From the NCBI GenBank assembly GCA_009192285.1, contig CM018605.1, positions 458,767 through 522,766 on the forward strand: DNA of 64,000 nucleotides, read 5' to 3'. Shown in pieces: positions 1,574 through 58,070 of this stretch. The stretch comes from Morchella semilibera (Eukaryota; Ascomycota; Pezizomycetes; Pezizales; Morchellaceae). A model generated the notes under the pieces. It had not been told where the DNA came from. It ran no database searches and saw only the letters and a list, made by a program, of their open reading frames with translations. Position 1 is the stretch's first letter; every line of letters starts with the position of its first letter. A program made the translations under genes and the position numbers.

Positions 1574-2139
1574 TGCACTCGGAGGTTGTGTAGAAGGTTT
1601 GGTTTAGTTGAGGCTCCAGAGGCTTCCCCACCTTACATAATGCTCATGCGAGAAATGGGGAGCCCGTCAACTTGTCGCCAGACGGAGTGAGGGTTAGCTG
1701 CCAGCTCCCGGTACTTACATGTATGTACTAAGTATTTACTTATTTACAAAATTTGAGTAAATTCATGAGACTTTTTTTATAGTGATTTATATCTACATCC
1801 CATTAGCCCAGTCTTGGGCTTAGATACACTTTTCAGCAGATAGTGATGACAAATCATTTTGGAAATGATCGAAACTGCATGTACTCAAGTACATGTAGTA
1901 ATGAAATCTTCAACCCTGGAGTAATATACAATCCCCCGTACCTGGAAAAAATACTCCATGCGCCAACAGCTATAAATACATGAACGAAATTAAAAGTAAA
2001 GAAAACGCCGCCCAACGCCAAAAACAAAAACCAAAAACAACCAAAATATTACAACGATGAATAGAAAAAAAAAAAAATAGGAAATAAAATATAAACTAGC
2101 AAAATTAGAAGATTAAAATGATGAACGCGACACGAAAAT
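1574..2139. other. Intergenic, no gene seen
   Basis: Promoter side of the She4-like gene and 3' flank of the ankyrin kinase gene. AT-rich towards 2000-2110 with A-runs. It holds two TACATGTA palindromes at 1726 and 1890. No ORF of interest. Confidence 0.7.
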
Positions 2140-5100
2140 TCAGTTAGGCAAAAGCCAGTCAGACTTGTGCCCAGTGGCCCCCCAAACTGTAAACCGGCTG
2201 ATATCCATTTTCCGCCTCAGTATATCCACGATGTCCTTGTTACCATTCTCGATAGCTATATCAAGAACTGTCCGGCCTTTTCTGTCCTTTATTTTCCATT
2301 CAGCTCCATATGATATGAGCAACAAGATGATATCCTTTCGCTTCAATTGAACCGCAAGATGTAAAGGGGTGTATCCCCCATGGCGAAGCCGCGTACGAGT
2401 TCTTGCTGTTAAAGCTGCTCCATCCTCCTCTGCCGTCTCTTTTTGACCCATGAATACCGCCGCAGGGAGTGGCGTCCGTCGATCTGAAGTCTTTACTGAG
2501 ACTCTTGCCCCATACCTCAGTAGTAATTCTACGACAGCTTTGTGTCCTCGTCCCACAGCTTCATGAAGTGGCGTCCATCCAGCTGAGTTCCTCGCTTCAA
2601 TTTCCGCTCCGCTGCTCAGTAGTAATTTCACTACTCCTTTTTGCCCCTGGAAAGCCGCCTCGTGAAGTGCTGTCCATCCATCTGAAGTCTTTGCGGCGGT
2701 ACTTGCTCTTTTATCAAGCAGCAACTTCACAACACCTTGGTGTCCTGATGAGCTGCTTCATGGAGTGGTGTCCAGTTATAATTATCTGAAGTCTTTACTG
2801 CTGCTTTGGCTCCCTTTTCTAACAGCAGGGCCACTACCTTTTCGTCACCCCCGTAGGCTGCCAGGTGCAATGGTGCGTCCCCATTGTTATTCTTCTCGTC
2901 GACCTTAGCTCCATAGAACATTAACAACTCCACAATATCGGGGCGACCTTTTGTGGTAGCTAGATGCAGGGCTGTCTTCCCGTCTTTATCCTTCGCCGTT
3001 GCTTGAACCCCGCATTCCAGTAGCAAACTCACAATAGGCCTTTTACCCTGACCTGCAGCCATGTGCAGTTCTACCCAGCCTTCTGCTCTATTGTCTAGTA
3101 GAAATCGCACCATACTTTTGCGACCTTCATGGGCAGCTAGGTAAAGCGCCGTTACTCCCTTATTCGTCCTTGCTAAAATATCTGCGCCACTAGAGAGAAG
3201 CAACTTGCCATGCCAATATATCCCTGATGTGCAGCACAGTGTAAAGCTGTCCGTCCTCCATCCGTCTTTTCCGAAACCTTTACCCCATTTTTCAATAGTA
3301 ACTTGGCCATATCAGTGAGCCCCTGGTTGGCTGCTTCGTGTAAGGTTGTCCATCCTCCAGCCGATCTTGCTAAAAGATCCGCCCCGTTATTCAACAACAA
3401 TTTTACCGTAAAATCATGCCCCTTGTGAGCTGCGGCATGCAAAGATGTCCAATTCCCTTTTGATTTCGTGGATGTTTTCGCTCCGTTCTTCAAAAGTAGT
3501 GTGACCATTTCATTGTGACCTCGACGGGCTGCGTCGTGCAATGGCGTCCACCCCTTACCGGATCGTGCTGCAATATCTGCTCCATTTCTTAACAGTAGCT
3601 TCACCATATCATCGTGTCCTTGGCGTGCAGCAATATATATTGGCGTCCATCCTAAGCCAGATTTGGCTTCGATATTTGCCTGTTTTTCCAGAAGTAATTT
3701 TGCCATTCCAATATCGCCTTTCTTAGCGACAAGATACAGAGCTGTAGTTTTTTCTTCCGTCTTTGCCTCAATATTTACCCCACTTTCAAGAAGTAGCTTT
3801 ACCATGGAGGTATAGCCATGGTAAGCCGCGCTGTGCAAAGGTGTCCATCCTTCATCTGACCTCGACTCTATATCCGACCCTTTATTCTTTAACAACAATC
3901 TCACCATCTCTACATGTTCTGTTTAGCAGCGAGGTATATAGCTGTATGAGCATTTTCCGTCTTTACGCCAACGTCCGCCCCGCGATTGACAAGTAGGCGT
4001 GCGACGACAATGTGCCCCCGGTGAGCTGCGTAGTGCAATGCCGTCCATTCTTGATTCGATTTAACTGCGACATCTGCGCCATTATCAAGGAGCAGCCTTG
4101 CTGTTTCTCTAAGGCCTTTCTGCGCCGCAAAATGCAATGCGGTCAGCCCCAGAGTTGTTTTGGCCGAGACTCTTGCCCCACTCTTCAGTAAAAGCTTCAC
4201 TGTCTCAGTATGGCCTTCCAGTGAGGCTATGTGAAGTGCAGTCCTCCCGTCCTTTGTCTTTAATGCAATATTTGCTCCTTTCTGTAAAAGCACTTTCATG
4301 ATATCGGTATCCCCCTGCTGGGCCGTGGCGTGCAATACGGTTAAACCTTCATCGGATTTTGCTATAATATCTGCTCCCTTCTCGATAAGCAGCTTTAGCA
4401 TTTTGATGTGCCCATTTTGGGCTGCATAATATAGTGGCGTCCTTCCCGAGTATCCAGACGCAATATCTGCCCCCTTACCCAGCAAGAGCTTCGCCATACC
4501 AATGTGACCCTCTTGGGCGGCCAGACACAAAGCGGTTGTTCTGTCCTTTGCCCTTAGCTCACAGTCCGCTCCGCTCTTGATCAGCAAATCAGCTATGTCG
4601 ATATGACCACCATACGCCGCCATATGTAGCGGTGTTTTTCCATCCCCCGTAAGGCTATAAGAGACGTCCGCTCCTTTGGCTAGGAGTAACTTTGACATAT
4701 CCACTCCACCCATAATCGCCGCCACATGCAGTGCTGTGTAGCCATCTTTCTCTTTTGCCATGACGTTTACCCCATGATCCAAAAGCAACTTCGCCCAGCT
4801 CAAATTGCCCTTCTCGACCACCAGGCGGAGAGCTCTCGCAGACTCTGCCTCTGACCTTGTGAGCACCCCCTTTCTCAGCGCTAATCGAACGGATTCTTCC
4901 GCCCCCGATAGGATTGCTGTAACTAATGGCATACCATTTTTGTCCGATAGTTCCGTGGAAGAACTATTCAGAGTCATTGGTACGAAGAATGACCTCCGTT
5001 GCAGACCATACAGAATTTTCATCCAGAAGGTAGCGTCTTTGTGCCTTAGCCAAGGCTCCTTGAGAGCTTCTTGAGCGGTAGTCCGGTTCTCTGGTAGTGG

Positions 5101-6036
5101 AGCTAGCAATTTGATAATAAAGTCGGTTGCTTCGGCGGATACCTCCCTCGCGATAAGCTTTGCAGTTGGAAGGCCAATCTTACCCCGGGCGTAATCATTC
5201 AACTCCGGAGTATTAAATGGTGTGTCTCCAGTAAGCATGGTATGCACTAGACATCCAAGTGACCATATATCAACGGAATTATCGTATACTGATGTTCCTC
5301 TATCCAAATAATCGTCCAAGATTTCTGGCGCAGAGTATTTCGGGGTCCCTACGGTGGTGCGTAATTGGGTGCCATTCCGCTCCTGTTTGGAAATACCAAA
5401 ATCCCCGATTTTGACGATCAAAGGTTCCTTTTTATCAATAAGGATGTTCTATATAAACTGTCAGTCCCATAAAACCTTGGAGACCCAGTTCATGAAGACT
5501 AACCTCTGGTTTGAGATCTCGGTGGCAAAAGTTATTTGAATGCATGATCTTCAATCCTTCAAGGAGTTGCAATGTGACCGACTTCGCGACATTTTCGGAC
5601 ATTACTCCCTTTTCCGTAATGAAACTTGAGAGGTTTCCGCATTGGACATATTCCATGGCGAGGTAAATGCTTTCTTCTTTCTCAAACCACCCGAAAAATT
5701 CCACAAAGTGCTGAGGATACTATACAAGAGTCATTACTTTTTAATTCTCTTTCGAGATATTCCAAACCAAGGCATAATACATACCGCTTTTAACTCCGTC
5801 AGAGCAAGTAATTCCTGTGAACATCCTAATATACTACGTCCCCTGTATATTTTTTTCACGGCCCTAACCTCGCCTTTTTCTCCTTTTTCTAGCCATACTA
5901 TCCCACCACTACCACTCCCCAGATCTTTATCTTTGATCCATTTTTGTGTAGTTGAATTGGTGGTGTGTTTGCAATAACCCTCGAAAAACTCAGTGTCATA
6001 TTTGTATGTTTCGAATCGCTCCAAAAAGCCCGACAT
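2140..6036 (-). CDS. Ser/Thr protein kinase fused to about 28 ankyrin repeats (apparent frameshifts)
   Basis: Exons 6036-5785, 5719-5504 and 5448-2140. The N-terminal protein kinase domain looks catalytically complete. It has a glycine loop GSGSGGIV near residue 41, AVKK lysine near 61, HRDLKPEN with D152 and N157, DFG at D172 and an activation-loop end YSAPEIL. Residue N157 is supplied by the acceptor TATATAG at 5449; a later AG would lose it. From about residue 290 to the end run roughly 28 ankyrin repeats with the usual TPLHxAAxxGH and VxLLLxxGA cores. The ankyrin region is broken by three apparent single-base losses near 3917, 3204 and 2743. Each lies where one restored base would continue a repeat exactly, and two repeats (around 3095 and 2420) are internally shortened. 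A kinase with this tail is probably a signalling or interaction scaffold, but substrate and role are unknown. It could be a recent pseudogene or an intact gene with sequencing errors. Confidence 0.8.
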
Positions 6037-6237
6037 TTTATTCGCAATGATTAGAGGAGATCGTAGCGAAGGATTTCATGTCCAATAAGTACTATCTATG
6101 CAAGGCTTTATATAATTACCCGTTGCCTGCCTAGCCAGCACCCAAGCCCCCATAAGGCAGCACAAGGGTGTGTCACTACATAGCCCAGGACTTCTGCAGT
6201 ACCCGAAGAGCCTACACTGATGTCACCGTTCGCGCGC

Positions 6238-6309
6238 GGGGTTTTAACGAACACGGGGTTTTGGCGCCTAAACTGTCTGTTCGCCAAAACCCCGTGTTCA
6301 CCAAAACCC
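6238..6309. repeat. Hairpin-forming inverted repeat
   Basis: Left arm 6238-6266 and right arm 6282-6309 are near-perfect reverse complements sharing the core GAACACGGGGTTTTGGCG, with a 15-base spacer. The arms differ only by small changes around 6246-6248. It resembles a degenerate MITE or foldback insertion; no clear target duplication is visible. Confidence 0.75.
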
Positions 6310-6347
6310 TGCTGTACCCGTACTACCAGTATCCAGGATTAAGGCTT

Positions 6348-6605
6348 AGCATAGTAGAGAGTATTTAACAAGTGCCAAAACCGACAATTTACACTTCGCC
6401 ACATTGCCGAAACCGTCAATTTTCTACATATCCTGCCAGGGTATTTCACAGAAAGCGTGAAGTACTGTTTACCTGCGGAGTTTCTACTATCATGCCTTCC
6501 ATGTGTGGTTAATTAGGTGACTGAGAGGGACAGTCCCGCAACCGTCACTTTCAAAGTGTCAATTATCGGATTTGACACTTAATAAATACTCTCTAGTGCG
6601 ATGCT
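6348..6605. mobile_element. Degenerate foldback/MITE-like element, about 258 bp
   Basis: Left arm 6348-6394 (starting AGCATAGTAGAGAGTATTT) is the diverged reverse complement of the right arm 6556-6605 (ending AAATACTCTCTAGTGCGATGCT when read through). Roughly four fifths of positions pair. The interior holds a second partial copy of the AACCGxCAATTT motif near 6405. No coding capacity. Likely a decayed non-autonomous DNA transposon. Confidence 0.6.
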
Positions 6606-6630
6606 GCAAACTACATGTAGTTACAGTTAA

Positions 6631-6840
6631 GTAGACCGTGTGCACCTGTGGCGAGCATCCTATCTGACCTCTAAGGATCTACTACGGGTGTAGGGGTAAG
6701 TCTGGCGACAGTAAGAACTGTTGCAACGACAGGCTGAGGCTCCAGTGTCGCCAGACTTACCCCTACACCCGTAGTACTACAAACGAGGGCCTTTATTATG
6801 CGGCACAGGTACATGCTCGCCACAGGTGCACACGGTCTAC
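6631..6840. mobile_element. Foldback element with 28-bp perfect inverted ends, host of a nested MITE
   Basis: Ends 6631-6658 and 6813-6840 are a perfect 28-bp inverted repeat starting GTAGACCGTGTGCACCTG. The interior contains the complete smaller element at 6682-6774, so the outer element was there first. No ORF and no convincing target duplication outside the ends. Classed as a non-autonomous DNA element of unknown superfamily. Confidence 0.65.
6682..6774. mobile_element. 93-bp MITE, Tc1/mariner-like, TA target duplication
   Basis: Perfect 29-bp terminal inverted repeats (6682-6710 and 6746-6774) start CTACGGGTGTAGGGG and are flanked on both sides by TA (6680-6681, 6775-6776), as expected for Tc1/mariner/pogo insertion. 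The core contains CTGTTGCAACGAC, which recurs in the related copy at 51689-51784. It is nested inside the element at 6631-6840. It is too small to code and would need a transposase in trans. Confidence 0.8.
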
Positions 6841-7076
6841 AGCCACTCTTCAGAAGTGTCCGTGATTCATATAAGAGGGTCAGTGCCCAATTTGAGTTGT
6901 AGTACCAAAGAACTCAAATGTATCTATAGAATTATAGAAACCTGATAACAGAGAATAAAAACACCATGAACACCTAATACTGATTTTAGCCTCCATTAAG
7001 TACTAGTGGCTTGAGATTTTAAACATTTCGAATTCAATCCACAGTTTGATAACTGACTTGAGCCGGACATGTCGAA

Positions 7077-7310
7077 TCACGAACACTTTTGATGAGTGGC
7101 TGTACATGTAAATAACAAAAAAAACCCATGCCATGAAAAGTACATTATATCCCCAGCATAATTAAAGTCCAGTTTGGTAAAGTAATTAGCCCGCGCTAGA
7201 TTGGCCATGGTCTCCGGTGTGAGGGGAAGAGGGTATCTATCCTTAACTGTTATGGCGTTCTGCAACTTCCGACTAGAAATGGAGGATCAGCCATGAGGTA
7301 TACCCGTCTT
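7077..7310 (-). mobile_element. Fossil of a Ty3/gypsy-type LTR retrotransposon (reverse transcriptase part)
   Basis: A short stretch resembles the start of the reverse transcriptase palm of Ty3/gypsy elements (motifs [13 protein letters not shown] and YFTKLD). It is a small, broken and isolated fragment. I see no LTRs, gag, protease or integrase around it. It looks old. Confidence 0.7.
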
Positions 7311-7765: not shown

Positions 7766-7860
7766 TTGGCCAAGAACTTCTGAGTAAATATTTAGTTCTT
7801 GGCGACTGGTTTTTGGTGTGGATAACCCACCAAGAGCTCGAAATTTGAACTCAAAATTTG
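7766..7860 (+). repeat. Dispersed repeat, copy 1 (copy 2 at 51825-51909)
   Basis: Starts TTGGCCAAGAACTTCTGAG and continues through TAAATATTTAGTTCTTGGCG and a CCCACCAAGA block. The same order of blocks is present at 51825-51909 with scattered substitutions. It contains an internal inverted repeat CCAAGAACT/AGTTCTTGG. Probably a terminal piece or short derivative of a DNA transposon; the full element is not visible. Confidence 0.65.
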
Positions 7861-8570
7861 AAAATATGAGTGTGGCCAACACGCTCTAATTACACAGCCC
7901 CGTGCATTGACTTGAGTACCGCCATTAAAATTGGCTATGCATATGAAATCAAAATTGCTATAAGCAGACTGATCTACCCCTTCAACCAATCGTGAAGCAG
8001 GTAATCCCTGGCCGGAGATAGCCCATTTTTCGAGTTTTTGCGGTATATCCTCCCAACGTAGAAGTAGTGCGCACTCAAAGACAAGTGTGCGAAGCAATGA
8101 TCATAATTCGATGGTATCACCACATCCTTTGGTAGCATTCAGCTAACCCTCAGCCCATTCCCACCAGTCATACCCGTCTAAGGTCGCAACCTGAGTCCTA
8201 CGCAAGGTACCTCATAGAAATACCCCAGTCTTATTTAGGCCTTCTATTTTTTTCAGCTGGAGAGTGTGTGATATCTGGTGAATCTCATCCATGTGATGGC
8301 ATTTCTAAAAGCCCAAACTCCCAATACAGTGCAGACCATGGACCAGATATCCGTGTCTTGGTTTTTTTTGTTAAAAAAAAAAAGCAAAAAAAAGCAAAAA
8401 AACAAACAAAAACAGCCCACAAACCCCTCCAGCTAAATCTACCTCTTCTAAGTCTGCCTCACCATCCCAGTGTACGAGCACGAAGTTTATACACAGCCAT
8501 TTATGATCACATCGTTGCAACATGGCAAACGCTCGAGCTGGGCTTGGGCTTCACCTCACGGGAAACATTA

Positions 8571-8726
8571 TCCCTTAGTCTGTCAATGCTGACCCCCCTA
8601 TAATAGAGGAATTAAATTTGTATGGAGGATCTATTATTTGATAAGGGAGATAACGGGATCTATTAGTAAAGCCACACAAAATTTGCTTCTTCTTGGGGGT
8701 CAGCATTTTACTGACAGACTAAGGGA
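8571..8726. mobile_element. 156-bp MITE, Tc1/mariner-like, TA target duplication
   Basis: Terminal inverted repeats begin TCCCTTAGTCTGTCA (8571-8585 and, reversed, 8712-8726) and continue as ATGCTGACCCCC, with a five-base insertion in the right arm. TA dinucleotides flank both ends (8569-8570, 8727-8728). Non-coding interior. A diverged relative lies at 54277-54395 and shares GAGGAATTA and TTAGTAAAGCCA. Confidence 0.8.
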
Positions 8727-9689
8727 TACAGTCGGGGTACAGAAGTTTTGGTAGTTTTTGATGGCCGTTGCAACGCAAAATTTGTATGGGAACACCATAC
8801 AAAATCAGAAATCCTTGAAAGACCATCTTGAAAAACACATCACACACACCTGGAAAGTGGGCTCAAAATTCTAGAATCTGAGCTCCATCTTGAGATAATT
8901 TCTAATGTCTTCTTAAGTGATAGAATTTTTTGTCCAACACTGAGTGGTTGGTTTAGATCGCTAAACACGGCTACTTTGGCTGTAAAAGGTGTAATCTACC
9001 AAAATTTATGTCCTAGTACTATATATATGCGATGATTCTCTGGCCTTTAATAGATACTAAAAAATATATATACCTCAAGCATATTCAATGCGCCTCAATA
9101 CCCATACATTACCCTCCGATATATCATGTGCCTGGGTGGGCGCTTGATATAGAAAGATACATGTACTACATGCAGTGTTCAAACCCTGGGACCAAGAGCC
9201 AAACACAGTGGAACATAGGAGATTCGCATCCAATTAGAAGTCTCCCTATGGTATTTTACGTACGTTATATTTGTTTCGTATATATAATTAGGGCTTCTAT
9301 AGTCTAATGTAAGTCATGACTTTCTTTTATTTATACTCGTACGTGCGAGTGTATCGTAGGTTTTCTGTTAACGAGTGATACTCTGTGGTTAAGAAACTAC
9401 ATGTGCGTATACATCACAAAAAACCCTAGTTTGATATTTCCTCATGGGAATCAGATGCTTAGTCAGAAATACTGAGATAACTAAATTCGATTTTATGGTT
9501 TCCACTCCCAATGCCCCGTAGCATAAAAATTTTAAGCGTTAAACATTTACTCCATATGCCCGCCCATAAATACCCATAAATAAACACCTATCCCTTAGTA
9601 ACCTGCAGAAAGAAATTATATATACAAAAAAAATCCTACTCTTCGAATGAATCGATATAATCGGTATTTAACCGTCGCGCCCAAGCTAT

Positions 9690-11132: not shown

Positions 11133-14100
11133 GATTATTCTGTTTGTTGCGTGGGGAAAGGAAATCTATCTGACTGTCTGACTGTCTGTCTGTCTGTCCA
11201 GGGATGTATCTAGGGTGTATCTGCGAGATAGTTGCAGTTGATATCTGGTGTGTATGTGGTTGAAGGTACGTACGTCTTTGATGCGTTAGGTAGGCCAAGG
11301 TAAAATAGTGCGTAAGTACTTTTTGGTTAGCTATGTTACGGCTACGGCGCGGGCCGTCTCTAGATCTGCTTGCCGGTTGCTAGTGTGTGTCTCTATCTGC
11401 TCTGCGCGAATTCACCATATATCTTATTTTTCCTCTGCTCCTCTCCCCTCGTTTTTCTTTATCTCCAGGATGAACCAGCCCAGATGAGAACGGCCGAAGA
11501 GAAAGAGATGCTGATTAGATGATATGATTGAAAAAATTTACACACTCGATTGGGCTGTGAGGTGAGGCTGACCGAGGCTGACCGAAGTTGCGACTCAATC
11601 AACAACAATCGGAAGGGCAGACTATAGTTGGAAATAAAATGGGGTTGTCGCTTTCACGACGAGCTTTGTTGAGACGACAACAACGGGCCAGGCCAGGGTT
11701 GCAGCTTCAATTGAAGTGCAGTTGGATGCAGTTACCCGGAGTTTCTTAAACTTAGAAACACACCTATCTTGACATAACCTGCTATGTAGCTAGAGTAGCT
11801 TCTAAACTGAAAATTTCCCCGCAATCTATGCGGATCCCCCGTTCATTGAGAAAGAACGAGATGTGCGTCATATTCACCCACCATACTTCCTGTATTTTAA
11901 CGCTTTTTGATAATTCATAATCGAGGCCTGCAGCAAAAAAAATGTTGGTTTATCTAGATATAGGCTGCAGTGTTACCCTATTCTAGAGCACTGTATGTAG
12001 CATGATGTGCTGTGATGTGCTGTGATGCGCGCTTTCTTCAAGCTGCAGTTTCGTCTCGTTACCAGGTCCAGAATAGTTCCCCCCTTCCCCGTGAGCGAGA
12101 TCCTACCAATCTTGACCCGCCATACTGATAGATAATGTAGGTACTGTACCTATGTACATACAGTATGTACCTACACCCCACACTCTAAATGCCCGACAGC
12201 ACCTGTGACCCGACCCATGTTCTCCTACGTGTATGGAAGGCTAATTTATCTTCCCCGAAACCCCATGGACCATACCGTAACCATCTTACAGAGAATTAAA
12301 AACCGAAGATGGCCATTTTCTAATCCGATCTCGATAAAAATCTCAGGGTTTGAAGGTATCTCTGTGCTAACGCTAAAAGAGAAGGAGGAGATGAGTGATT
12401 ATCCACGCTTTCCGGCAACCGGAACCTCTGTATGTGAGCCTTTTATATAATTCGCCAGGTATTGACAACCCTGGTCCCTGGAGGAGGAGGCATGTAGATA
12501 AGGATCACGTAGTGTCACTCGCGTAAGTGCGCTGCAACCGGTGGGGTGAACAATCGGTAGTTGCAACCGTCCGGTGGATGGGATACCTAAGCAAAGCTGC
12601 TGATGGGAGTGCGATCCATGTCGTAGGGATTCATTCATTCCTCCTTCATATGGTAGAAAACTCCAAAGTACATGTATGTATGTAGGTAAGTACATTTGCT
12701 CCCAAGCGAGGAGCTTGGAGTTACGTGTATATTGCTTGACCACGTTTCCGTCCAGATCGATAGGGTACCTGTACCGTGTTGAATTTGCCCCGTGGCAGTT
12801 TCTGTAAACGCTCTCTCGCGCGGCTATATTAGTTAATTACATCGTTAATAAGCGCTTACTCGAGCTCGTGGCCATACGAGTGCAGAAAATTGCACTTCAA
12901 ATCATTTCCCGCCCTTATCAGTCCCATCACCAATTCTCACTCAACTCAATGACGATCACCAATCAGCTCATACCTCCCCCTCCCCGCCTAGCCCCCATCC
13001 AGAACCAGACTGGATAGAGTGCTCTGATGTAAACGAATGCCAAACAAATCTCTTCAAAACCAGGTTGACTGTTTTTCTGGTAAAAGCCACGCAGCCATGG
13101 GGTAACTTCCCAGAGCCGCACGAAAAAGAACGTTTTTGTGGCGTGAGGTGTACCGGGCAGAAAAGTTGATCCTTTCTAGAACTTACCACAGATCTCCCCG
13201 CTTCAAGAACGTAAGCTTAGGCCAAAACTCACTCTCGTGCCCGAACCCCTCAGGGTATATAATAGTGGTTGGAAATTAGGAGGGGAATATCTCCGTTCCA
13301 AAAACGATTGGTCTTCGTATCGGATCTTTCTTTTGTTCGAATTTTGCAGTTCTAGAGAGTAGGGGTTTCGTTGTCCTCCTGAGTAGGCCGTGCGAGCACT
13401 CGTGATACTTCACGTTTCCCCACAACGCAGCAGCGCGCATATGACCGCCTTTCCCCGCGGTGGCGGCCTTTGCGTACGTCCAATACAATCGGGACAACAA
13501 AGAAAACGAAACAACACACACATTTCACCGCAACGGCTTAAGGAAAAAAAAGAAAATACTACAGCCCCCCAGCTAACCGCCAGAAACCACAGCCAAACCG
13601 TCGGGATCAGCCCAGGCCCGTTTTCTATCAACCCCCACCCCCCCCCCCCCCTCTCCTCCCGAAGGCTCCCCCGGCTGGAGATGCGACAAAACTCGACCTG
13701 TCAAAAAAGCAACTCCCCCACGACCTAAGCTGCAAGCTGGGAATTGGAGGGGAGGGGAAAAAAGGGTGGTGCCCAGGGTAGCGAAAAATCCTTTACTCTA
13801 GGATATTCTAGGTACAGTAGCTACTGTACATGCAGTAAAAAAGTAATTCTTTTTACGTACAGCCAGCCCAAACACATCCTCCCAAACACTTGCTACCACA
13901 CCTACTCTACCGGGGGAGGCGTCCCCGGGCCGAAAGTAATGGGAAGAATGGTTGGTTCTAAAATGGAAATCTTATGGGAAAAAAAGCTTTTCTGCAGCAG
14001 TAATTTTTTTTTTTCATCCTTTTTCTATGCAGGTAAAAAAAGCAAATAAATATTCCAAGACCCGAACCTGCAGCTAGAATGGGACAAACCAATAAACGCC

Positions 14101-14908: not shown

Positions 14909-16458
14909 TCATGAGTGTGAAGCCGAGGCATGATTCTGCTGTTGGGCGGCCCTTCGGACAGGCTCGAAGTATGGGTGGGCCATAGCTTCTTTGGCCGTCA
15001 GTCGCTCCTGCAAAACCACGAAGTCAGTTCACCGTCACTAAAACTTGGGATGGGAATGTATCACACACCTGGTGGTCATATCTTAGAAGCTTGTCCAAGA
15101 AGTCCAATGCATCATTACTGACGAATCTCTGATTCTCTGCGTTGACAAACTGGTGCCAGTTCTTTCTTGGAAACCGCCCAAGGATATCATCATACTGTGC
15201 ATCAAGCTCGATATCGTACTTGTCAAGGTAATCGAATAGCTCCTCGGTTCCCAAAACCTTGGCGATCTTAACGAGCTGATCCGAGTTGGAGTTTCCATGA
15301 AAAAATGGCTCTTTCCGGAAAATCATTGATGCAAACATAGCACCGAGTGACCAAAGATCAAGTGAGTAATCGTATTCTTGATAGTCGACGAGTAGCTCCG
15401 GTCCTTTGAAGTAGCGGGATGCAACACGGACGTTGTATTCAGTTCCAGCATGATAAAACTCAGCTAGACCCCAGTCGATTAATCGTAGCTGTACGAAGGT
15501 TAGTCCGATCTGGATCCCATGACTAGGGTAGAAGATCGATGAAGCTCACCTTTCGCTTCTCGTGATCGATCATGACGTTGTGTGGCTTGACATCTCTATG
15601 CATGATACCCTTGCTGTGACAGAAATCCAACGCCTACCAATCAACAGTCAGAAAACTAAGACCCTTTTATTATTCCGAGCGGGCACCAACCTTCAACAAC
15701 TCAAAAATGTAGTAGCGCACATCGTAGTCTTGAAATTTAGGGTAAAGGCTGCGGAAGTCGGTATTGTTGACATACTCGAAGATCAAAGATGGTGTTTTAC
15801 TCTATTCGTTGGATTTTCAGGTTAGGAATTGCCGCTGGTCTCCCCGAGAAGCACGCCTTGGGATGAGCAGTAATAACAAACCTGAGGATCCCGAACAACA
15901 TCTAGCAATGCGACGATATTTGGCCCACCGGAGAGATTTTGAAGAATTTTGATCTCTCGCTTAATCTTCTTCTTCTTAACCGGTTTCAAAACTTTGATAA
16001 CGCACTTTTGATAATTTGTGATGTTGATCCCCTCGAAAACCTCAGAGTATTTACCACGCCCTATTCATATTTTGTCAGAAAACCCGCTCCCAATCATATA
16101 TGTAGGTAATGCCGACATAGGAGGCGAATGGGCATATTTTTCTCCTCGGTGAAAACGAACCTATTTTGCGGACAACCTCATAATTCTCGAGAACGCCCCA
16201 CTGAATATTTACTGAGTCGTAATCCCAGTATGATCTGGGCATGTGCTGGTTGACCTGGCGGCGCCAAAAATTCTCGCATTAGTATATGCCTGGGTTGGGA
16301 TGGGAGGAGATTTTCCCCGCAGCCCTAATATAGAACAAAACACAAAACCATCCAAAACTTTTGAGTTGGTGAAATCAAGAGAATTGAGAGGTTCACGTGG
16401 GAAGGGGGGGGGGGGGGGAGGGAACAAGGGAAAGTACATCTGCGTACACACGAGCCAT
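14909..16458 (-). CDS. CKA1: Casein kinase II catalytic subunit alpha
   Basis: Constitutive acidophilic Ser/Thr kinase of the CK2 holoenzyme, nucleus and cytoplasm. Seven exons: 16458-16438, 16254-16161, 16060-15882, 15801-15691, 15633-15550, 15488-15069 and 15007-14909, giving 335 residues, the usual CK2 alpha length. Seen in order: [19 protein letters not shown] at the N-terminus, glycine loop [27 protein letters not shown] with the CK2 basic cluster, [26 protein letters not shown] catalytic loop, DWGLAEFYH (DWG instead of DFG, a CK2 trait), [21 protein letters not shown] and the C-terminal [17 protein letters not shown]. The first exon is only 21 bases, and the first intron (16255-16437) is the longest and carries a 15-base homopolymer near its donor. 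The DWG and lysine-rich cluster make the assignment secure. Confidence 0.97.
16404..16418. repeat. 15-base G homopolymer inside CK2 alpha intron 1
   Basis: Run of G on the plus strand (C on the transcript), about 20 bases inside the donor of intron 1. It forms a pyrimidine tract in the pre-mRNA. Confidence 0.9.
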
Positions 16459-19924: not shown

Positions 19925-20819
19925 CGAATGAAAATTTTGGGATGTCGTTTGAATAGTCCATTTTCGATTTCGCATGTACCCTAGAGTACTCTGATTAATG
20001 TTTCCACGCATACTGTTAGGCGTGCATTGTGTCCAGCCAGGATGTGCTTGAGGCTAGAGTACGGGTGTAGGTAGGTACTCCAGATGATTACATGTATGTA
20101 TACAGGATTGGTCCATGCACTACATGTAGTAAAAATCGCCCGTTCTTTCTCGCCGGTCACGGAGTATTCCTCCAATGGAACCAAGACCAGGCTTTAGCCA
20201 CATCTGCATCCATCTAATTGCAGGCCCTGCCTGACCTCTGTACCTGACGCTTGTGTCCAGCGCCTTGGCTGGAGGTACCGTGGTTCTCGGAATGTGACAT
20301 CATGACGCAATGACCTTTGTTTTTAGAGGAAGAGGGTTGGTATTCACACATGCACCATACTTTAAATCAACATGGTGTCCTTCCAAGCGGGGAAATGTGA
20401 CAGGCTTGGCCGGGATATTTTGCGCAATGCGTTCGCTTAATTGCTTAGCTATGTTAATTTAAGCCTCAACGACTCACGATGCGTCGCTGCAGGTGCTTCG
20501 TGAAGTGGTTGATCACGGATGACCTCCCTTCGACCTGCATTTATGGGGAAATTGCTTATTTCTGACCCTTCCCCATAATTTGTCTTCTGTCCTCAGCCTG
20601 TCTGTCCTCTTATTCCCCGACCCCTCCCTCCCTCCCTTCCATCTCCATCCTATCCTTTCACCTTTATCCGTCTTATCTTTCTCCTCTACCTCTCACTTTC
20701 TCCTTGCTTGCATCTTATACCTGTAACCACTCCCAGTCCTTAAAATCCGCCGATACTTCCTATTCTTTGGCCCCACTTCTTCTGCATCCCTGTTTCCTTG
20801 TGCAGCATAGATAGCCGAA
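19925..20819. other. Intergenic, no gene seen
   Basis: Between two plus-strand genes. Two TACATGTA palindromes (20089, 20121). A strongly CT-rich tract at about 20580-20700 precedes the taspase start and looks like a fungal promoter/leader pyrimidine element. Confidence 0.6.
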
Positions 20820-24365: not shown

Positions 24366-25701
24366 GTTTGCCGAGAAATGAGCCTTTGTGATGTGCCGAT
24401 AAATGATTGAATGAGCGGGTTGGAAAGTAGAGCTCACTGAGCTATGAAGTGGGAAGCAGAGACGTTGGTTGCTAAGCGCTGTATGTAGGTAGATCTGCCG
24501 CTACACAACGCACGAGCGGAACAGTAGGAACCTACATGTATCACCTCACCTTGGCTTTTAACGCGGAAGAAGCGTGGTTTAGGGTTTTGACTTGAGCCCT
24601 CAAAATCTATTGCCCCCTCAAGACCATTTTGCGGGTACAGAAAACAAGGTTAACCCCAGTAACTAGAACCTCCATTTCACTACATGTAACTAACGTGGAT
24701 GGCTGGGGCACTGTTTGGCCCTTAACAAAATGCAGATCCCAACATCTCCACATTTCACGCCCTTGTAAATTCTTTCCAATTTAAAACGGGATAGCACGCG
24801 ATTATTAATTGCCCCCGAAATTTTCGGCACACAATTCTCCGCCTGGTTAAGTACCCTTGCTGAAGAATACGAATTTTGCCAAAGACCCACATGTTTACCT
24901 GGAAGGTGGTTGCTTCCAAAGTTGCACTTGCACTTTGACGTGTCAAGCTACCGAGTGATACGATATGATGGCGAAGAACCCGAGTAAGTACTGCGAACAG
25001 CTTCGGCAAGAAAACTAAGCCTTGGTAAATTCCTCGCGATTGCACACTCTTGGCCTCTTTCGGTTGAACGAGGAGTGTGTAAACTAAAGTTTGATACCCG
25101 ATCCCCCGTTTCTGTACCTCTAGTAGATCTGTAGATGTTAGGGGATCCTAGTCGGTATGGGTCTAGCTCAGGACTACAAGTAGCAACGAGGGTTCTTGGG
25201 CCGGACGTGCGCGTTTGTGCCAAAAAGGAAAACTACAATAACCCTGAGTGGTGACAGGTGAAGGCGAAGATAATTGAGCGTAAAGGGGACGGAACAAAGT
25301 GGGCTCGAGTCGATCCTTAGGTCCTCTCAAGTATTGCAGTGATAGCCCGAGTCGGTGCTCTATTGGGTCAGATAAGGTTATGTTTAAAGACACCAGATGC
25401 TTAACTTGATATTTATCCATAAAAGTATAAGTACAGGTAAGTTAATCTTTGGCGAAAGATAAGGAAGAAAAATGCTATGCTTTAAAAATCAACTTGCATC
25501 GAATCCCCAAATAACCTCATCAATACTCATCCATTAAGAAAGAAGAAAAAATATAAGCCTCACAGTTCATCATGAAATAAAAGATGATTTACTGCTGTTT
25601 TGAACAGGCCCTTACAGTACAGCCCGGTTTCATGTTCCCCCATAACCATTATTCCGGCCCGATCATTACTTTACGTCAGTACTCCCCTCTCCACGAATTA
25701 C
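24366..25701. other. Intergenic, no gene seen
   Basis: Promoter side of TFB4 and 3' side of the DUF7707 gene. Two TACATGTA palindromes (24533, 24681). Several short ORFs without recognisable features. Confidence 0.55.
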
Positions 25702-26662: not shown

Positions 26663-27001
26663 AGGAGGTGATTATAAAAGAAAGGAAACAACCAAAACAA
26701 CAGAGAATTAAGCGGCTGGTAAGGGAAAAGGAAGGAGGGAAAGTTGGTAAATACCAAACAAAAAACTACCCAAAGAGGGCCCTGACTGGCTACATCCAGG
26801 CCTAATTAGGTATTGTCCCGGCTTGTACCATTGTTGTCCCACACTAAAATAAATACGGAGCCGCATACTAGCCACATTACATGTATATATAGGTCCCCCG
26901 ACATGGTTAGTTCGGTTGCACAGCTAAGAATATGGTGGGTGATATTGAGAACATATGGCTCCGGAAGCCTTAGACCGGTCCTCCGCGGGAGGATCGCTGT
27001 T

Positions 27002-27028
27002 TTGAAAAATAGGGTTTCTATTTTTCAA
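27002..27028. repeat. Short perfect hairpin
   Basis: Arms TTGAAAAATAG (27002-27012) and CTATTTTTCAA (27018-27028) separated by five bases. Pairing extends imperfectly outward (GCTG/TAGC). Confidence 0.8.
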
Positions 27029-27846
27029 TAGCGGCGTATTCGACATGAGGAGAATAAAGTGGTGTGAGTCGTGGTGATTAATATCATGATAGGTATCTAC
27101 ATCATGTAGTTTTACTGCAGGCTGTCCGAGCACCCGGACCTAGCATATCTTGCAACCGAACAGGCCCTAATCCTCATGTACCTACACGGCGGATGAAATA
27201 GGACAAGGTCTAACGCTAACGCCTCAATGCCAGGGCCGTTAAAAGTCAACTCTAGACACTTGGCCGGGGTAACAATCTGTAAGAAGAAAATGTCACTAAG
27301 GCTACCTTTAAGCAACCGGTGCGTTTGTACGGCACATTGGGTGACGAGTTTCCCAGAGGAACTCAGTCCTCAAGTGCCACGAGCTTCATAATATTATATG
27401 TATTTACTGTTTTGGTTAGGTGATATGTCACCTTGTCGCTACTTTTTCTAGCTAGGATGGATTGTTTATATGTCGTGAAGTTGTTTATATTAAAAGTTTT
27501 AAACTCAAGAACCCAGTCTTGAATAACAGGTGGTTTTCTCGATGGGGTGTAGACTTGAATCTCCCTGACCAGAACTGTTCGAGCAGATTTTGGACCTACT
27601 TGGCACCCGACAGCGAATACTATTCACACTTTCCAGTGTGCTCTATTGGTACATGTACTTGTAGGTACACCGTACACACATCAAACATGTCAATTACGTA
27701 TGTCCACCGCCACACTTATGCGGCCACATTCAATATTACGCCACATCAGCAGCTCCTTTGCCATTTCTACATCGATCGTAAAGGCAACAAAAACAACCCA
27801 AGGCTACATGATAGGTGCCTCCCACTCAATAAACCACAAACACAAT

Positions 27847-30962: not shown

Positions 30963-32434
30963 TGGATCGTGTTGAGGGTTCCTATTTACGGAGTGTTAGG
31001 GAAAGTACATAATATCACATGGTGTTAATTTTTTTCCTTTTTCCTCATATTGCTGGTTTCCGGAAGACGGTGTATTACGGTATTTTTCTCTCTTGGGTCT
31101 TTTTTTCTCCCTATTTTATATTTTTTCCTTTTTATATTCTTCCCAGTGAGCTCTTGTGAAATTCATGGTCCGTATCATTTCTTGTTTTTATTGTATTTTG
31201 ATCTGTTCATTGGGATCGTCGTGGGTATGGGGTTTTCTTGTTTACTCTCTTCTCTCTAGCCCCTATGTATCTCTGGCACTCACAGATATATAAGTTTCTG
31301 GCGTGTCGTGTCATGTAGTGTATTTTTAACATCGGCTTCCGCTGTACTTTCTCAATGCTGTATATTATGTATCTCAGGATACTATTCTCGGGAATGAAGT
31401 AGTAGCGGGTTCATAGTAATCTATGGTGCTTCAACGAAGACAATCTGCACGCAAAGGTCTATTTACTTCTGCGCATGTTCTGGGGAGGAATTGCTCAGGT
31501 ACGTACATGTACCGACATATCTACATAGGACAAGTACTACTGTTGCGCATAGGGTTAGGATCCCACGTGTTTTTTTTTTTTTAAAGAGCGATGCGTTATT
31601 GGTAGGAGTAAATACATGTAGGTGCTAATATGTTAGGGAGAGCATTGTCCTGCAGCTGGAATTACTTAAGTATGTAAGATGTGCCAAGGCCTGAAAGCCA
31701 CATGCGGCTAGAGCAGCTACACTAGCCGACTTCACGCCTTTCTGTCTCGACGCCTGTGCAGCCCCCATAGATAATGACGCTCAATCATCGCTGACTCCGA
31801 CAACAACCCACCGTTAGTTACCAGGCACCACAAGCCTCAGTCTGCCGTTCACTGAGATATATTCTGACAGAACACGTCTTCGCATTCGGTACTTCGCCCC
31901 TGTATTCCTGCGTTAGACCCCTTTATTCCGCCGCGTCGCTCGTGCCATCACCACTACCGGGGACTCGACCAGCGTTTCGAACCGTGATTGCTTGGGCATT
32001 TAAACAGCATAAAAACGAAAAACAGGAGTAGCTACCACGGCAACTCAAACACAAGTGCGCAAACTATTATCAGAGGAGCTTTTGGTTCACTTGGAAAGCT
32101 CGGGAGGCTCAAGATCGCTGGTGGAGGGGTTCATAGGAACAGGTCGCGGAATCCACAGGAGGGACCTTTAGGGTCAAGAAGGGAGGTTTTTTTTCTTTTG
32201 AAGGAGGGGACCCTAGCTTGTTCAGTGATAGCATTTTTGGGGAGGGGAGCCAAAATAGGATGAAGACCGTGCTCTTGCTGGCATAGAAGGGACGACACAA
32301 AACGACGCCGGAATTTTCTACGTTTTTTGCGTGTCTCGATCGCACAACCCCATTGAAATACTCCCCACTACGCCGCCTCTACCTAAACATCTTTAACAAG
32401 CTTTATCCATCCCTTATTCAAATAATTTGGCAAG
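30963..32434. other. Intergenic, no gene seen
   Basis: T-rich 3' flank of the SAS4 gene, then promoter region of TAF2. TACATGTA at 31504 and 31613. No convincing ORF. Confidence 0.6.
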
Positions 32435-37130: not shown

Positions 37131-38113
37131 TTAGCATCGATATATGGGGTTTACTTTTTGAAATCCAAGTTTTTCATTAATGCTCTCAATTTGAACCTTC
37201 AATCTCTCACAACATATTTCTCTTCTTTGATGTCTAGCCTTTTTGGTAAGTCTACGGATTTTTAGTTAGTTTTCCTACAGATGTATCATTACAGAGGTCT
37301 TTTTTGTACATTGTTACTTCGTTTCACTTCCTGTCTGGGCGCGGGTTGTTTACTAGGGGGATGGTTTTCTTTTTTTCTTTTTTCTTTTTTTTTTCTTTTC
37401 CTTTTGTTTTGCAAGGGCATAGCATGAATCGGAAGCGGCGTTGAATCTTTTTTCTTTTCTTTTCCTATTCCCTTTCGTGTTTCTAGTTTTCCCCTACCTC
37501 CTATATCCCTATTTACTTAAATCAGGTATTATTCCTTCCCCCCTTCTTTATATTTGTTATTAAAAATGCAGGCTGCGAGTCACTAGCACGGTAATATGTT
37601 ATCGGCTACTTTGATAGAGGTATTCTGATGAAAATGAGCTAGTCATGGAAGATGGTTATATTCATATCAACGGCGATAACAGAGCAACGGATATGATGGA
37701 GATGTATGATTGGAGTAATTCCAGCCACCTTTCTACTTGATGGATCAGATAGAATTGGCTGTTGCGTATGAAAGAAAAAATAGAAATTGATACATGTAAA
37801 CAATGACTGCAGGTCTCCAGCCGATGGCTTATAATCTAACAATTATAAATGTTTTATATATAGCTACTGTAGATGCAAATTGAAGACCCTATCCACCGTG
37901 TGAATCTCGAATGTCTCGGCACCAGTTGTCGATAATGACCGCCGCTTGTGTAACAATGTAGCCACATTCGAGTTAGCGTGTAGCTTACGTATCTAAGCCT
38001 TTAACGTCACCTCATCTTTCTAAGGTTCATCCCCCAACTATCAAGAGGATTTACACCACAGAAGTAGCCTATAATTGTCTACAAATACTATATTACTATT
38101 GTCATAGAAGTAC
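37131..38113. other. Intergenic, no gene seen
   Basis: 3' flank of TAF2 with long T/C-rich stretches (37360-37480) and the ESA1 promoter. One TACATGTA at 37791. Confidence 0.6.
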
Positions 38114-39776
<1,663 letters not shown>

Positions 39777-40844
39777 AAGCGACACGCGCTTTGGTTTATC
39801 AATCTTATAAAATAGCATAGTAATGTTTAGGCATTTGAGGTGTGGTATTTATTGCTTTTTGCTGCTTTTTACTTGGATGGGTCTTTGAATTCTTGGAGTT
39901 TTAGGGGCTTATGTTTGATTCTGTTTTGACACCAAATGTATCGTTTTCTAAGCACTGTATCGAATTGATGGATGGTATGGAGTTTGTAGAAGGGTACCCT
40001 TGAAGCTGGCACGACATCAAATACTGTGCCCATATTTAAATCTAGGCAATCTACAGGAGATTCCCCCATGTTGGTAACTGGAGATAAGATGGAACGGCAA
40101 ATTTCACAAGAGCCGGTGGTCTTGCTCATGCTACTCTACCCATAAGCTATAGTTTTTGGACCTAAATCATCGTCTTCGCGTAAAAGCACAGTTTACCCAG
40201 TTCTCAATTCTTTTTACCAAGCCATAATTGAAAGCTATACTATCAAAGACCATATTCCAAGATACAGCGGATTTTACCGGGACCCCATTCACAAATAGCA
40301 AAATGCTTTCCACCCTCTAAATTCGTTTTTTGGTATTTTTTTCTTAGTGACGGTGATATATGCCCAGACACTGTACATGTATGTTGAGTACATGTATGAG
40401 AATAGTGGGTGAACAAGTAAACTATATTGGGTTAGGTCAAGGAGCAATCATGGTTTGTCACTCGTCCTGGCTCCCAACGCTGAACGGAGCAGAACTACGT
40501 ATTTATTTATACCCCATACAAGCATGTAACAGCGGAGCAGAGCTGGTGCCCGGAAAGAACTCTTTGGGCCTATTTTTGAGGCGGGCTTAAAGGGCAGGCC
40601 TAGGCCAATAATTTGTTGGGGCGTTTACTATAACATGCATATGACTATAAGGGTTATATATATAGCGCTAGACGTAACTTAAATACCTAATACTTATAAT
40701 TAACAGGTATATATGCGATATCTAGGATGGGTTTCATGGAATCACTGCTGCTATTACAGCACTTGATACCACACTTTACATTAAAATCCCCGATCCTATA
40801 TTAACAGCCCACAACCCTTGTTGACCGCATATCTACTGGTATAT
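39777..40844. other. Intergenic between convergent genes, no gene seen
   Basis: 3' flanks of ESA1 and the DUF2306 gene. Two TACATGTA palindromes 15 bases apart (40374, 40389). A short minus ORF at 39869-40129 has no recognisable feature. Confidence 0.55.
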
Positions 40845-43462: not shown

Positions 43463-43489
43463 ACGACCACGACGACCACGACGACCACA
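43463..43489 (+). repeat. ACGACC/ACG microsatellite
   Basis: Nine-base ACGACCACG unit repeated nearly three times, in the CDC26 upstream region. Confidence 0.85.
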
Positions 43490-50857: not shown

Positions 50858-51688
50858 GATTGCTGTCTGTCGCGGTCAGAGTGACCGGTACTCGATTCCT
50901 TGTTTAATTCGCGCTTCTGTTATGATTCGAGGGCTCTTTTGTGTGGGCGCGGTAGGCAGGAGATGGGCACACGTTAGATGTTCTTGAGTGGGTGATGAGG
51001 TGATGGGAGTTCGTCGTATTTCTCCCACATCTACAGGCGGCCCAAGGATAGGTCCGGGGGTTGCTGTGTTCGGCTTACTTTATGCAGCCCACTTGGGAAA
51101 TTTATTAAAATAGCTCCAGAGGCGTTTTTCTCCTTACTCACCCGTCCAATCATAAAACAATTGTTGCACTTTCGCAATGCGATAGGTACTTCAGCTTTCC
51201 GAATGGCGGTCGACTTAGATACACTGCAGGGCCCGACAATTGGCAGCGGCTTGTTTGTCTATCCCGAACACATGGCTTCTTCTTTCTCTTCTTCTCTGCA
51301 TTTCCCGGATTTGAATAGTTTCTCTGTCACGTGAAATCCCATCCAGAGTACCTACATGTATGTATACGGATGTGATAACACCGTTCTTCCGGGGGCTTCA
51401 ATAGAGAAAATACAATACTTACATACATGTAAGTACATGTATCCCAATCCTTGACGCGTGGCCCATCGAGATAACAATCTGCAAAAACTTGCCCTTGAAA
51501 CACAATGAATTCCATTTTGCATGCTATTATGAAACTTGACCGCGATGGCCGTGCATCCGGGACCGTAGTATAATAATTCTGTACAATTCTGGCTTGGTTT
51601 GAGGCACATATGGGTTCTGGGGTAGAAGGGTTCAACGGCGGGGAAGATTACGTAGGGAACACTCGAGCGATTTAGCCAAATACATGTA

Positions 51689-51784
51689 CTACGGGTGTAG
51701 GGGTAAGTCTATAGACACCTACATGTAGGTACTCCTGTTGCAACCACGACCACTGTAGACTACAGACTTACCCCCAACCCGTAG
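51689..51784. mobile_element. 96-bp MITE, same family as 6682-6774
   Basis: Left end CTACGGGTGTAGGGG (51689 on) and right end 51764-51784 are inverted repeats of about 21 bases with two differences. TA flanks both sides (51687-51688, 51785-51786). The core shares CCTGTTGCAAC-ACGAC with the copy at 6682. The core also contains a TACATGTA palindrome. Non-autonomous Tc1/mariner-like. Confidence 0.78.
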
Positions 51785-51824
51785 TACCTACAGCTGTACA
51801 AGGCCTATCATTTATTAGAGTGAT

Positions 51825-51909
51825 TTGGCCAACAACCTCAGAATCTAAATATTTAGTTCCTGGCGATAGTTTTTGGTGTGAAAATCCCACCAAGAACTCA
51901 AAATTTGAG
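51825..51909 (+). repeat. Dispersed repeat, copy 2 (copy 1 at 7766-7860)
   Basis: Starts TTGGCCAACAACCTCAGAAT and continues TAAATATTTAGTTCCTGGCG and CCCACCAAGAACTC, aligned over its length with 7766-7860. It begins only 40 bases after the MITE. Confidence 0.65.
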
Positions 51910-53895: not shown

Positions 53896-55010
53896 AACAC
53901 AGGCAGGTTGAGATCTCGAACAGCAGCTCAGGGAGTGTGTGGGGGGTGTTTTTTTTTTTTGCGATCATGGGTTCTGATCTTATCTTATCAGAATTGGCTT
54001 GGCTCTGTTAATCATTGTGGGGATTACTACTCCTCGATAGTAACGCATACATGTATGCCCCCAGGCATGAGAATAGTCCCCGTTTTAGGGACTTGAAACG
54101 AAGCGTAGGTTTCAAACTCCAGGCGCCATAAGACTACACCAGCACAACTTTTAAGCTTCTGAGGTGCTACGCCTAAGGCAGGTTGACTACATGTAAATGC
54201 GTGCTGCCACCCCCGAGGGGCGGTAGAAAAAATAACGTTAATTAGGGAATCTACTCTAGCCATTGTGTCTAGGGGATCCCAAGTCTAGCAATGCTAATCC
54301 CCCCGACAATAGAGGAATTAGATTGGTTTATATTGTGTTTGTTAGTAAAGCCATATGAATTTTTGCTCTTTTGCTTTTTGGGGGCGGGGGGGCAATTCTT
54401 GCGCAACTACGTATCGGAACCAATTCTTTTATAGAGGAGGCGGTTGAGCTGCGTCTTCACACGTCCGATGCCGGTGTGTTTATGGGCTTTTGAGCCGTAC
54501 ACAGATGCGCAGGCTGACATTATACCAAAGACACATTACCATATACTTAATCATAGCCTAGAATCATTTCCCTAGTTTGGTCAATTTCTAGCCAAAATGA
54601 TTGTATTCTTATACAACTTATCCATAGGCATGAACAACAAGTTCAATGTTGTGTAAACAAGACTACAAAATACTTAAGTACATACAGCGCGCGCGCGTGA
54701 GTCAAACAAAAACTTTTCAGAAACCATAACCCGAGATTCCTGTTCCTTCCCATGCCACCTTTTTTTAAAAAAAAAATTTCCCTAATTTGGGTATTGATAC
54801 GAAACGAAATAAAGATTTCTCCTTTTTTCTTTTCCTGAATAACATGAATATCAAAAACTACTTCAATGTATTCCATTCGCGGCGGCCTGTTCCAGGCCAT
54901 TGATGTTAACCTTTACCTCTGAGGAAAGGCCAGATCTCGGTGCTTCGAGGTGCTCCTTCCGCTGGATTGGTAGTGGTGTACCGGGACGAGACGATACGAG
55001 CTTTACATCC
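53896..55010. other. Intergenic with transposon remnant
   Basis: DUS2 promoter and LEU4 3' flank. TACATGTA at 54048 and 54188, a remnant of the 8571-type MITE (54277-54395), a GC dinucleotide tract near 54688-54697. No gene seen. Confidence 0.6.
54277..54395 (+). mobile_element. Diverged relative of the MITE at 8571-8726
   Basis: Left end ATCCCAAGTCTAGCAATGCT then AATCCCCC parallels the left end of the 8571 element. GAGGAATTA and GTTAGTAAAGCCA follow at the same spacing, then a TTTTGGGGGCGGGGGG stretch in place of the right arm. The right terminus is degenerate, so the border is approximate. Confidence 0.6.
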
Positions 55011-56908: not shown

Positions 56909-56949
56909 GAACTAGCAGCTTACATAGGCATTTTGTGATAGTTGAGCTT

Positions 56950-56956
56950 TGAGTCA
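56950..56956. promoter_or_regulatory. Putative Gcn4/CPC1 site upstream of LEU4
   Basis: Perfect TGAGTCA (reverse TGACTCA), 42 bases upstream of the LEU4 ATG. This is the consensus of the bZIP general amino-acid control factor. Confidence 0.5.
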
Positions 56957-57165
56957 CTCGAGAAAGTTATCCGTTTTCTTCTGTCTTGGGTTCAATGATT
57001 GATTCTGGGTGGGACCCTTTTTATAGCGAATGAAAGAACTGGGCTTTCCTGTTTGGTGGCGTTATGTTTGAAATTTGTGTGGAAGGGAAAGTTCCGATCC
57101 CTTCGAATTCTGACGTCTCACTGGAAGGAAATGCGAGCTGCCCCCGCCTTTATCCTGCACATACA

Positions 57166-57172
57166 TGACTCA
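57166..57172. promoter_or_regulatory. Second putative Gcn4/CPC1 site upstream of LEU4
   Basis: Perfect TGACTCA about 260 bases upstream of the LEU4 ATG. Having two copies in one short promoter strengthens the case for the first. Confidence 0.45.
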
Positions 57173-57229
57173 TCATGTAGTGATGTACGCCTTCATCCCC
57201 ACTCACTCGTCCCGATGACTACATGTACA

Positions 57230-57334
57230 TGTAGGATGTTTGGATAGAACCCTACTACATGTAGTATGTATATATACATGTGCCATATGCATTCCTTTCT
57301 GTGTTAACCTACTACATACATGTAACTACATGTA
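57230..57334. repeat. Cluster of five TACATGTA palindromes
   Basis: Copies at 57230, 57236 (overlapping), 57256, 57317 and 57327 within 105 bases, plus related ACATGTG and ACATAC words between them. Confidence 0.9.
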
Positions 57335-58070
57335 ACCACTACCACAGAGGGACTATACATCTATACCTGCGATGAAAGCCCAAACTCTCGTTAAACTCGT
57401 ACATATGTCTTGGCGAAGCCCAAATACACTTGTTATGCCATTGTGGTGTAGTCTCGTTCCCAGCCCGTACGGTGATGTTGGTGGTGGTGGTTGTGACCGG
57501 TTAGGTTCATATATCACAGTAGGGTCTAGAGCAATAACTTTTCGGAAAAAAGCCGAGTTTCTAAATAACCCCGCCGGACTTTTTTGGAGTTTTATATAAG
57601 GTACCTAGGGTAGGGTAGGTCTATGCGAGATCGGGAGAGCGTTTAAAAGCCGGTACAGTACCAAATCGGGAAGTATGCTGGTAACCTTAGTTGAGCCGCA
57701 GCCTTGGCAATACGAAACAGGAGAGAGCTCATCTAGCCATCTAGCCCACCCCTATTGAGTGAATTTCTCGCTGCGTTGCGAGAGGTTCTATGTACATGTA
57801 GTGCTTAAATATGAGGCTCAATCTTTCAGGCACTTTCCCCGATATGGCCCCGGCCGGAAATCGCCATTTCGGCACAAATTTCATCAGTAATAGATAAAGT
57901 TGCAGTATGCAATTGGCTACATGTAGTTGGAAATAACAATTTAGCAATTTGATAGAGGTCTAACAATTAAATTGTGAAATGGCATATGCCAGTGGCAGGG
58001 GCTCCCTGCCCGAAAGGGTCCTCAGATTGCACCATTCTTGTCCAAGCTAAAAAGAGGGACAGTCAGATAA

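Follow-up and report, generated by a model that had tools for sequence, protein, structure and literature searches.

The 64-kb stretch of contig CM018605.1 analysed here (the window) raises the question of why a single 8-base palindrome, TACATGTA, recurs throughout its intergenic DNA, and whether the word is read by a protein, was carried or left behind by small transposons, or arose in some other way. A preliminary description of the window had given at least 31 copies, where about one would be expected by chance. We counted exactly 31 exact copies; 27 of the 31 coordinates listed earlier were exact, and the other four were ten bases too high (1726, 9168, 57230 and 57236, for true starts at 1716, 9158, 57220 and 57226). 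Dinucleotide-preserving shuffles of the window contained a mean of 0.78 and a maximum of 3 copies (100 shuffles), in agreement with the earlier estimate of chance occurrence, and the second-order Markov expectation for non-coding DNA was 0.91 with the sites masked and 1.15 without masking. An order-4 model trained on the unmasked sequence produced a mean of 5.2 and a maximum of 13 copies in 120 simulations. TACATGTA is about thirty times commoner than chance in the window; it ranked first by count among the 256 eight-base palindromes (31 copies, followed by TATATATA with 12) and had the top z-score of all non-coding 8-mers. The over-representation is real, and stronger than first stated.

What is new here is that the enrichment stops at the exact word. 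The 24 single-base variants of TACATGTA were found at 24 places against 19.9 expected, and words with two mismatches numbered 404 against 389 expected (double-strand counts). With TACATGTA masked, its half-sites were not enriched, as CATGTA occurred 22 times (23.3 expected), ACATGT 10 times (11.3 expected) and ACATGTA 4 times (6.4 expected), and TGTA outside the sites occurred 368 times against 394.6 expected. The combination of TACA and TGTA was found 31 times at a spacing of zero and 0–8 times at each spacing from 1 to 11, with about 1.2 expected at each; the 8 occurrences were at spacing 4, and 6 of these contained an exact TACATGTA.

Nine other words were run through the same near-miss calculation as a control. 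Seven of them, of simple-repeat, low-complexity or slippage type, poly-A included, had haloes of near-miss copies (AAAAAAAA, CCCCCCCC, TATATATA, TACATACA, TACCTACA, TCTTCTTC and CTCCTCCT); single-mismatch counts observed and expected were 50 and 30 for TATATATA, 75 and 47 for TACATACA, 68 and 36 for TACCTACA, and 251 and 127 for AAAAAAAA. The remaining two, both small enriched words, were without a halo (GTTGCAAC with 5 copies, 12 against 12.9; CTACACCC with 8 copies, 21 against 28.5). By our estimate, a neutral word at steady state would carry about 8/7 relics per intact copy, which predicts about 35 relics of TACATGTA above background, or about 55 places; the excess seen was about 4, and the neutral steady state was rejected at P = 1.8e-6.

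Two of the control words were also noted as enriched in their own right. The palindrome GTTGCAAC has its five copies at 6720, 8514, 8767, 12560 and 51737, against 0.5 expected in non-coding DNA, and two of them lie inside two related miniature inverted-repeat transposable elements (MITEs). The word TACCTACA/TGTAGGTA has 12 non-coding copies between 12136 and 51785, against 1.7 expected, with the halo typical of slippage-type words.

Placement, clustering and neighbouring genes

Coding DNA was called by a codon-usage hidden Markov model (HMM), which assigned 38% of the window to it, and a second test used hand-set gene spans; gene starts, stops and ends are approximate. None of the 31 copies fell in HMM-called coding DNA and none in the hand-set gene spans, in line with the earlier remark that no copy lies in an exon. 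Nine copies are inside stop-to-stop frames of at least 85 codons, the HMM calling none of these nine places coding, and a Pfam search with two such frames (27559-28068 and 12402-12836) gave no match. Merely 0.1–0.2 copies would be expected in coding DNA by chance, so the absence is supportive but not decisive, and is no proof of avoidance on its own. The copies and their surroundings are as follows.

1716..1897, two copies (1716, 1890), upstream of a UNC45-like gene and downstream of an ankyrin-repeat gene
6612..7110, two copies (6612, 7103), flanking a row of TA-flanked MITEs that abut one another
9158..9165, one copy, non-coding by the HMM, overlapped by a 96-codon open frame
12669..12676, one copy running on into TGTATGTA, non-coding by the HMM, under a 145-codon frame (12402-12836, minus strand) without a Pfam match
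20089..20128, two copies (20089, 20121), between the RNase P p30 and asparaginase genes
24533..24688, two copies (24533, 24681), upstream of the Tfb4 gene
26878..27657, two copies (26878, 27650), upstream of the DUF7707 gene
31504..31620, two copies (31504, 31613), between the SAS4 and TAF2 genes
37791..37798, one copy, upstream of the ESA1 gene
40374..40396, two copies (40374, 40389), between the convergent ESA1 and DUF2306 genes
51353..51727, five copies within 375 bp (51353, 51424, 51434, 51681, 51720), upstream of SEC7
54048..54195, two copies (54048, 54188), upstream of the dihydrouridine synthase gene
57220..57334, five copies within 115 bp (57220 and 57226 overlapping; 57256, 57317, 57327), upstream of a putative LEU4 gene
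57793..57925, two copies (57793, 57918), upstream of the S-adenosylmethionine (SAM) synthetase gene (start codon read at 58171)

The copies are clustered locally. Gaps of 50 bp or less made up 7 of the 30 gaps between copies, against a simulated mean of 1.1 (P = 0.0002), which bears out the close pairing described before, and gaps of 200 bp or less made up 14 of 30 against 4.1 expected. The statement that many copies sit in promoters holds as a count, since 26 of the 31 stand no more than 1 kb upstream of an approximate gene start. As a preference over other intergenic DNA it is weak: when close copies were collapsed into 24 places, 20 of these stood in that position, where random intergenic placement gave 66% (P = 0.056). 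A promoter preference is thus no more than suggested. With regard to the nucleosome-positioning and modification readings in the preliminary description, the guanine-cytosine (GC) content around the copies is no different from that of other intergenic DNA.

The window derives from the nuclear genome of an ascomycete-like fungus. Among 30 selected open reading frames, Pfam domains were found for UNC45-like, ankyrin, kinase, RNase P p30, asparaginase, Tfb4, DUF7707, SAS4, TAF2, MYST acetyltransferase (ESA1), DUF2306, dihydrouridine synthase, SAM synthetase and chaperonin, while the Pfam search with 13 of the 30 gave no match. SEC7 is backed by a match to a SEC7-domain protein in the PDB, and the last chaperonin gene had CCT-delta as its best match; LEU4 is a reading of the open frames, as is the kinase part of the ankyrin gene, and both are to be taken as putative. 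The Esa1 segment shares 72% identity with yeast Esa1, which scored 503 bits against 328 for the best animal chain listed, and searches of the prokaryote and viral collections with Esa1 and with Sec7 found no relatives. A scan of the window detected no Rfam family at the gathering score and no tRNA.

The binding-site reading and its precedents

We consider it moderately probable that, in the intergenic DNA of this fungus, TACATGTA serves as a palindromic binding site which a protein reads strictly and which selection has kept. Of the explanations offered in the preliminary description, a binding site is the best supported, because the enrichment is limited to the exact palindrome, without a halo of near-miss copies. 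A homodimeric DNA-binding protein would read the exact eight bases, each subunit reading TGTA, on opposite strands. Such a protein might act near many ordinary housekeeping genes, like the general regulatory factors of budding yeast, and purifying selection would hold each site exact.

Several points weigh against this reading. Real transcription-factor sites are usually somewhat degenerate, and total exactness is unusual. The bias towards promoters is weak, two copies lie between convergent genes, and in the gene table 6 of the 18 intergenic gaps are without a copy, the other 12 having at least one. Up to about 14 relics per 31 intact copies would be compatible with the data at the 5% level, and scars from a transposon burst would look just as exact if the burst were young.

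The density in the window, about 0.5 copies per kb, would amount to an order of ten thousand copies if extrapolated to a genome of tens of megabases. If the density held across the genome, TACATGTA would rank as a dominant cis-signal in a filamentous fungus, one without a known reader. The general regulatory factor sites of budding yeasts, of the Reb1, Abf1 and Rap1 type, are short, strict, abundant and intergenic and lie near unrelated housekeeping genes; they are bound by abundant factors that keep the DNA free of nucleosomes, and are not known to be perfect 8-base palindromes. TACATGTA is likewise short, strict, abundant, intergenic and close to unrelated housekeeping genes, but it is a different word.

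The same eight bases are found in other organisms, and none of the cited precedents is fungal. In Phytophthora, TACATGTA is the consensus of an abundant promoter palindrome, termed motif-1 (PMC3520976) or M93 (PMC3597505), and the passages on it in these papers report 4150 occurrences in P. infestans promoters and a position upstream of 12,070 Phytophthora genes. There it was inferred to be the site of a homodimeric factor, and those passages name no proven binding protein. The palindrome is likewise far above chance in the window, but Phytophthora is an oomycete and the window is fungal, as seen from the identity of Esa1 to its yeast counterpart and from the SAS4 domain. A sister palindrome, TACCGGTA (M94), is described as over-represented in Phytophthora as well, whereas the window has 0 non-coding copies with about 0.5 expected. 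The identity of the fungal and Phytophthora words makes shared versus convergent recognition a testable question. More tentatively, filamentous ascomycetes may have an undescribed protein, general regulatory or architectural, for which TACATGTA is the exact-match site; the word would independently have become an abundant promoter element in oomycetes, perhaps seeded in part by Tc1-type scars of that spelling. We regard this account as possible rather than probable.

Animal proteins offer two further comparisons. TACATGTA is given in a passage of PMC3520976 as the preferred site of the Irx homeodomains (Iroquois; TALE, KN-type), which is the same word, but these factors are animal. The BEN domain of human NACC1 was crystallised on a duplex containing TACATGTA and, according to the part of PMC11472053 dealing with it, reads a CAT/CATG core, while in the window the outer bases are held just as strictly as those of the core. 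Among the matches listed in a literature search, no fungal paper treated TACATGTA as a motif in its title or the start of its abstract, subscription papers and other spellings being outside the scope of the search. The main-text portions of two accessible-chromatin papers, on Aspergillus niger and Neurospora (PMC8419926, PMC8214302), contained no CATG string, a search that motifs shown in figures alone would escape. The pair pattern TACATGTANNTACATGTA was found in 15 contigs of the viral collection with 2–6 copies per locus, none of them a useful comparison.

Transposon scars and other alternatives

The MITEs of the window bear on two alternatives. The scan for such elements gave 12 rows, which were reduced to five elements, against 2 rows in the mirror control; a sixth element was identified separately. 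The rest of the rows repeat the same elements in shifted form, apart from two pairs that arise from TACATGTA itself and one from A-rich DNA. The six elements are as follows.

6355-6595, MITE with TA duplication
6632-6839, MITE with TA duplication
6680-6776, MITE with TA duplication, nested in 6632-6839
6838-7104, MITE with TA duplication and CA...TG ends, the target duplication being the first TA of the TACATGTA at 7103
8569-8728, TA-flanked MITE with terminal repeat TCCCTTAGTCTGTCA
51687-51787, MITE with TA duplication, the target duplication being the last TA of the TACATGTA at 51681, with the TACATGTA at 51720 inside

The earlier suggestion that the word was spread by small transposons was not supported. 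One copy does lie inside a MITE, as had been described (51720, within 51687-51787), but it is the only one of the 31 inside a recognised MITE, the sister element at 6680-6776 is without TACATGTA, and two copies predate MITE insertions, so we rejected the idea of a MITE-borne word. The copies at 51681 and 7103 lend a TA to the elements next to them and are therefore older than the insertions, and both are still exact. With decay of about 5% per lineage, a rough estimate from mismatches between terminal repeats, their exactness is mild evidence for constraint. Two of the six MITEs are inserted at a TA belonging to TACATGTA (P = 0.007), which was noticed after the fact and may reflect a target preference.

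Two observations concern the MITEs themselves. Between 6355 and 7104, four TA-flanked elements with four different terminal repeats are adjacent or nested. An 85-bp repeat is present in two copies (7766-7848 and 51825-51908) that are 84% identical, each about 1 kb or less from a MITE of the CTACGGGTGTAG family. A MITE end sequence had no match in the viral collection.

The main rival to the binding site is that the copies are excision scars of Tc1-type transposons or MITEs, left by a recent burst through non-essential DNA. If an element with CA...TG ends were inserted at a TA and then excised, leaving two of its end bases on either side, the TA would become TACATGTA, and an excising MITE of this kind would spell exactly this word, which makes scars a serious rival. 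Such an element, flanked by TA, is present at 6838-7104. In C. elegans, as cited in PMC3520976, Tc1 leaves taCATGta as its excision footprint. The letters are the same, but the footprint is called rare there, and in the window the word is dense and has no excess of decayed copies. The overlapping TACATGTACATGTA at 57220 fits a second scar within a scar, and there is a mild excess of alternative scar forms outside the sites (TATGTA/TACATA 43 against 29.3; TACAGTA/TACTGTA 11 against 5.8). The two MITEs at a TA of TACATGTA would also fit, and the absence from coding DNA is explained equally well.

The halo of mutated scars is however absent, with about 4 excess places where a neutral steady state would need about 35 relics. 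Among the other 15 two-base words of the form TA-XY-Y'X'-TA, TATATATA alone is clearly enriched (12 copies), and it is a simple repeat. MITEs with CT, GA and TC ends are present, and yet the corresponding words number 0 (TACTAGTA), 1 (TAGATCTA) and 0 (TATCGATA). The two copies older than the MITEs inserted in them also speak against scars, and we consider this origin unlikely.

That the word is a structural, replication, meiotic or DNA-modification signal and not a transcriptional one is rather improbable. Modification and structural systems typically use strict palindromic words, and a placement outside genes with a weak promoter bias is consistent with such a role. No positive evidence for it was found, however; the flanking GC content is ordinary, and nothing similar was found among the paper matches listed.

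An RNA-level signal appears highly improbable. UACAUGUA in untranslated regions could be recognised through UGUA, a known element of Pumilio-type and cleavage/polyadenylation factors, and 16 of the 31 copies follow an approximate stop at a distance of 1 kb or less. Reading of a single strand, however, needs no palindrome, and TGTA and CATGTA are not enriched outside the sites. The collapsed places also show no downstream preference, as 12 of the 24 follow a stop at 1 kb or less, where simulations gave 55%.

The flanks of most copies are unrelated to one another; several copies run on into TGTA units. 

An outward GT stands next to TACATGTA in 13 of the 62 flanks against 4.6 expected, a mild extension towards ACTACATGTAGT, and TA is found at outward positions +3/+4 in 20 of the 62 flanks, a modest excess over the 19% seen after ordinary TGTA. 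An extended motif around TACATGTA was considered and rejected, the TA at +3/+4 being largely a general feature of TGTA in the window. TGTATGTA/TACATACA are nearer to TACATGTA than chance (P = 0.017), which places some copies in a TGTA-rich context; nearness to poly-A/T, TATATATA, GTAGGTA, CTACACCC, TGACTCA or CCAAT in the window was not significant. That TACATGTA arose by slippage in (TACA)n/(TGTA)n microsatellites is barely credible, since the nearby repeats, the copies extending into TGTA units and the raised count of TACA-TGTA at spacing 4 (8 against about 1.2) would fit it, but the unrelated flanks of most copies, the merely modest excess at +3/+4 and the near-miss haloes of the slippage-type words tested, which TACATGTA lacks, do not.

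Other repetitive DNA in the window includes a C-tract at 13632-13663 and a G-tract at 16392-16422, about 2.7 kb apart, and an open frame at 60274-60918, without a Pfam match, that contains proline/alanine-rich tandem repeats with 6-, 18- and 24-bp units.

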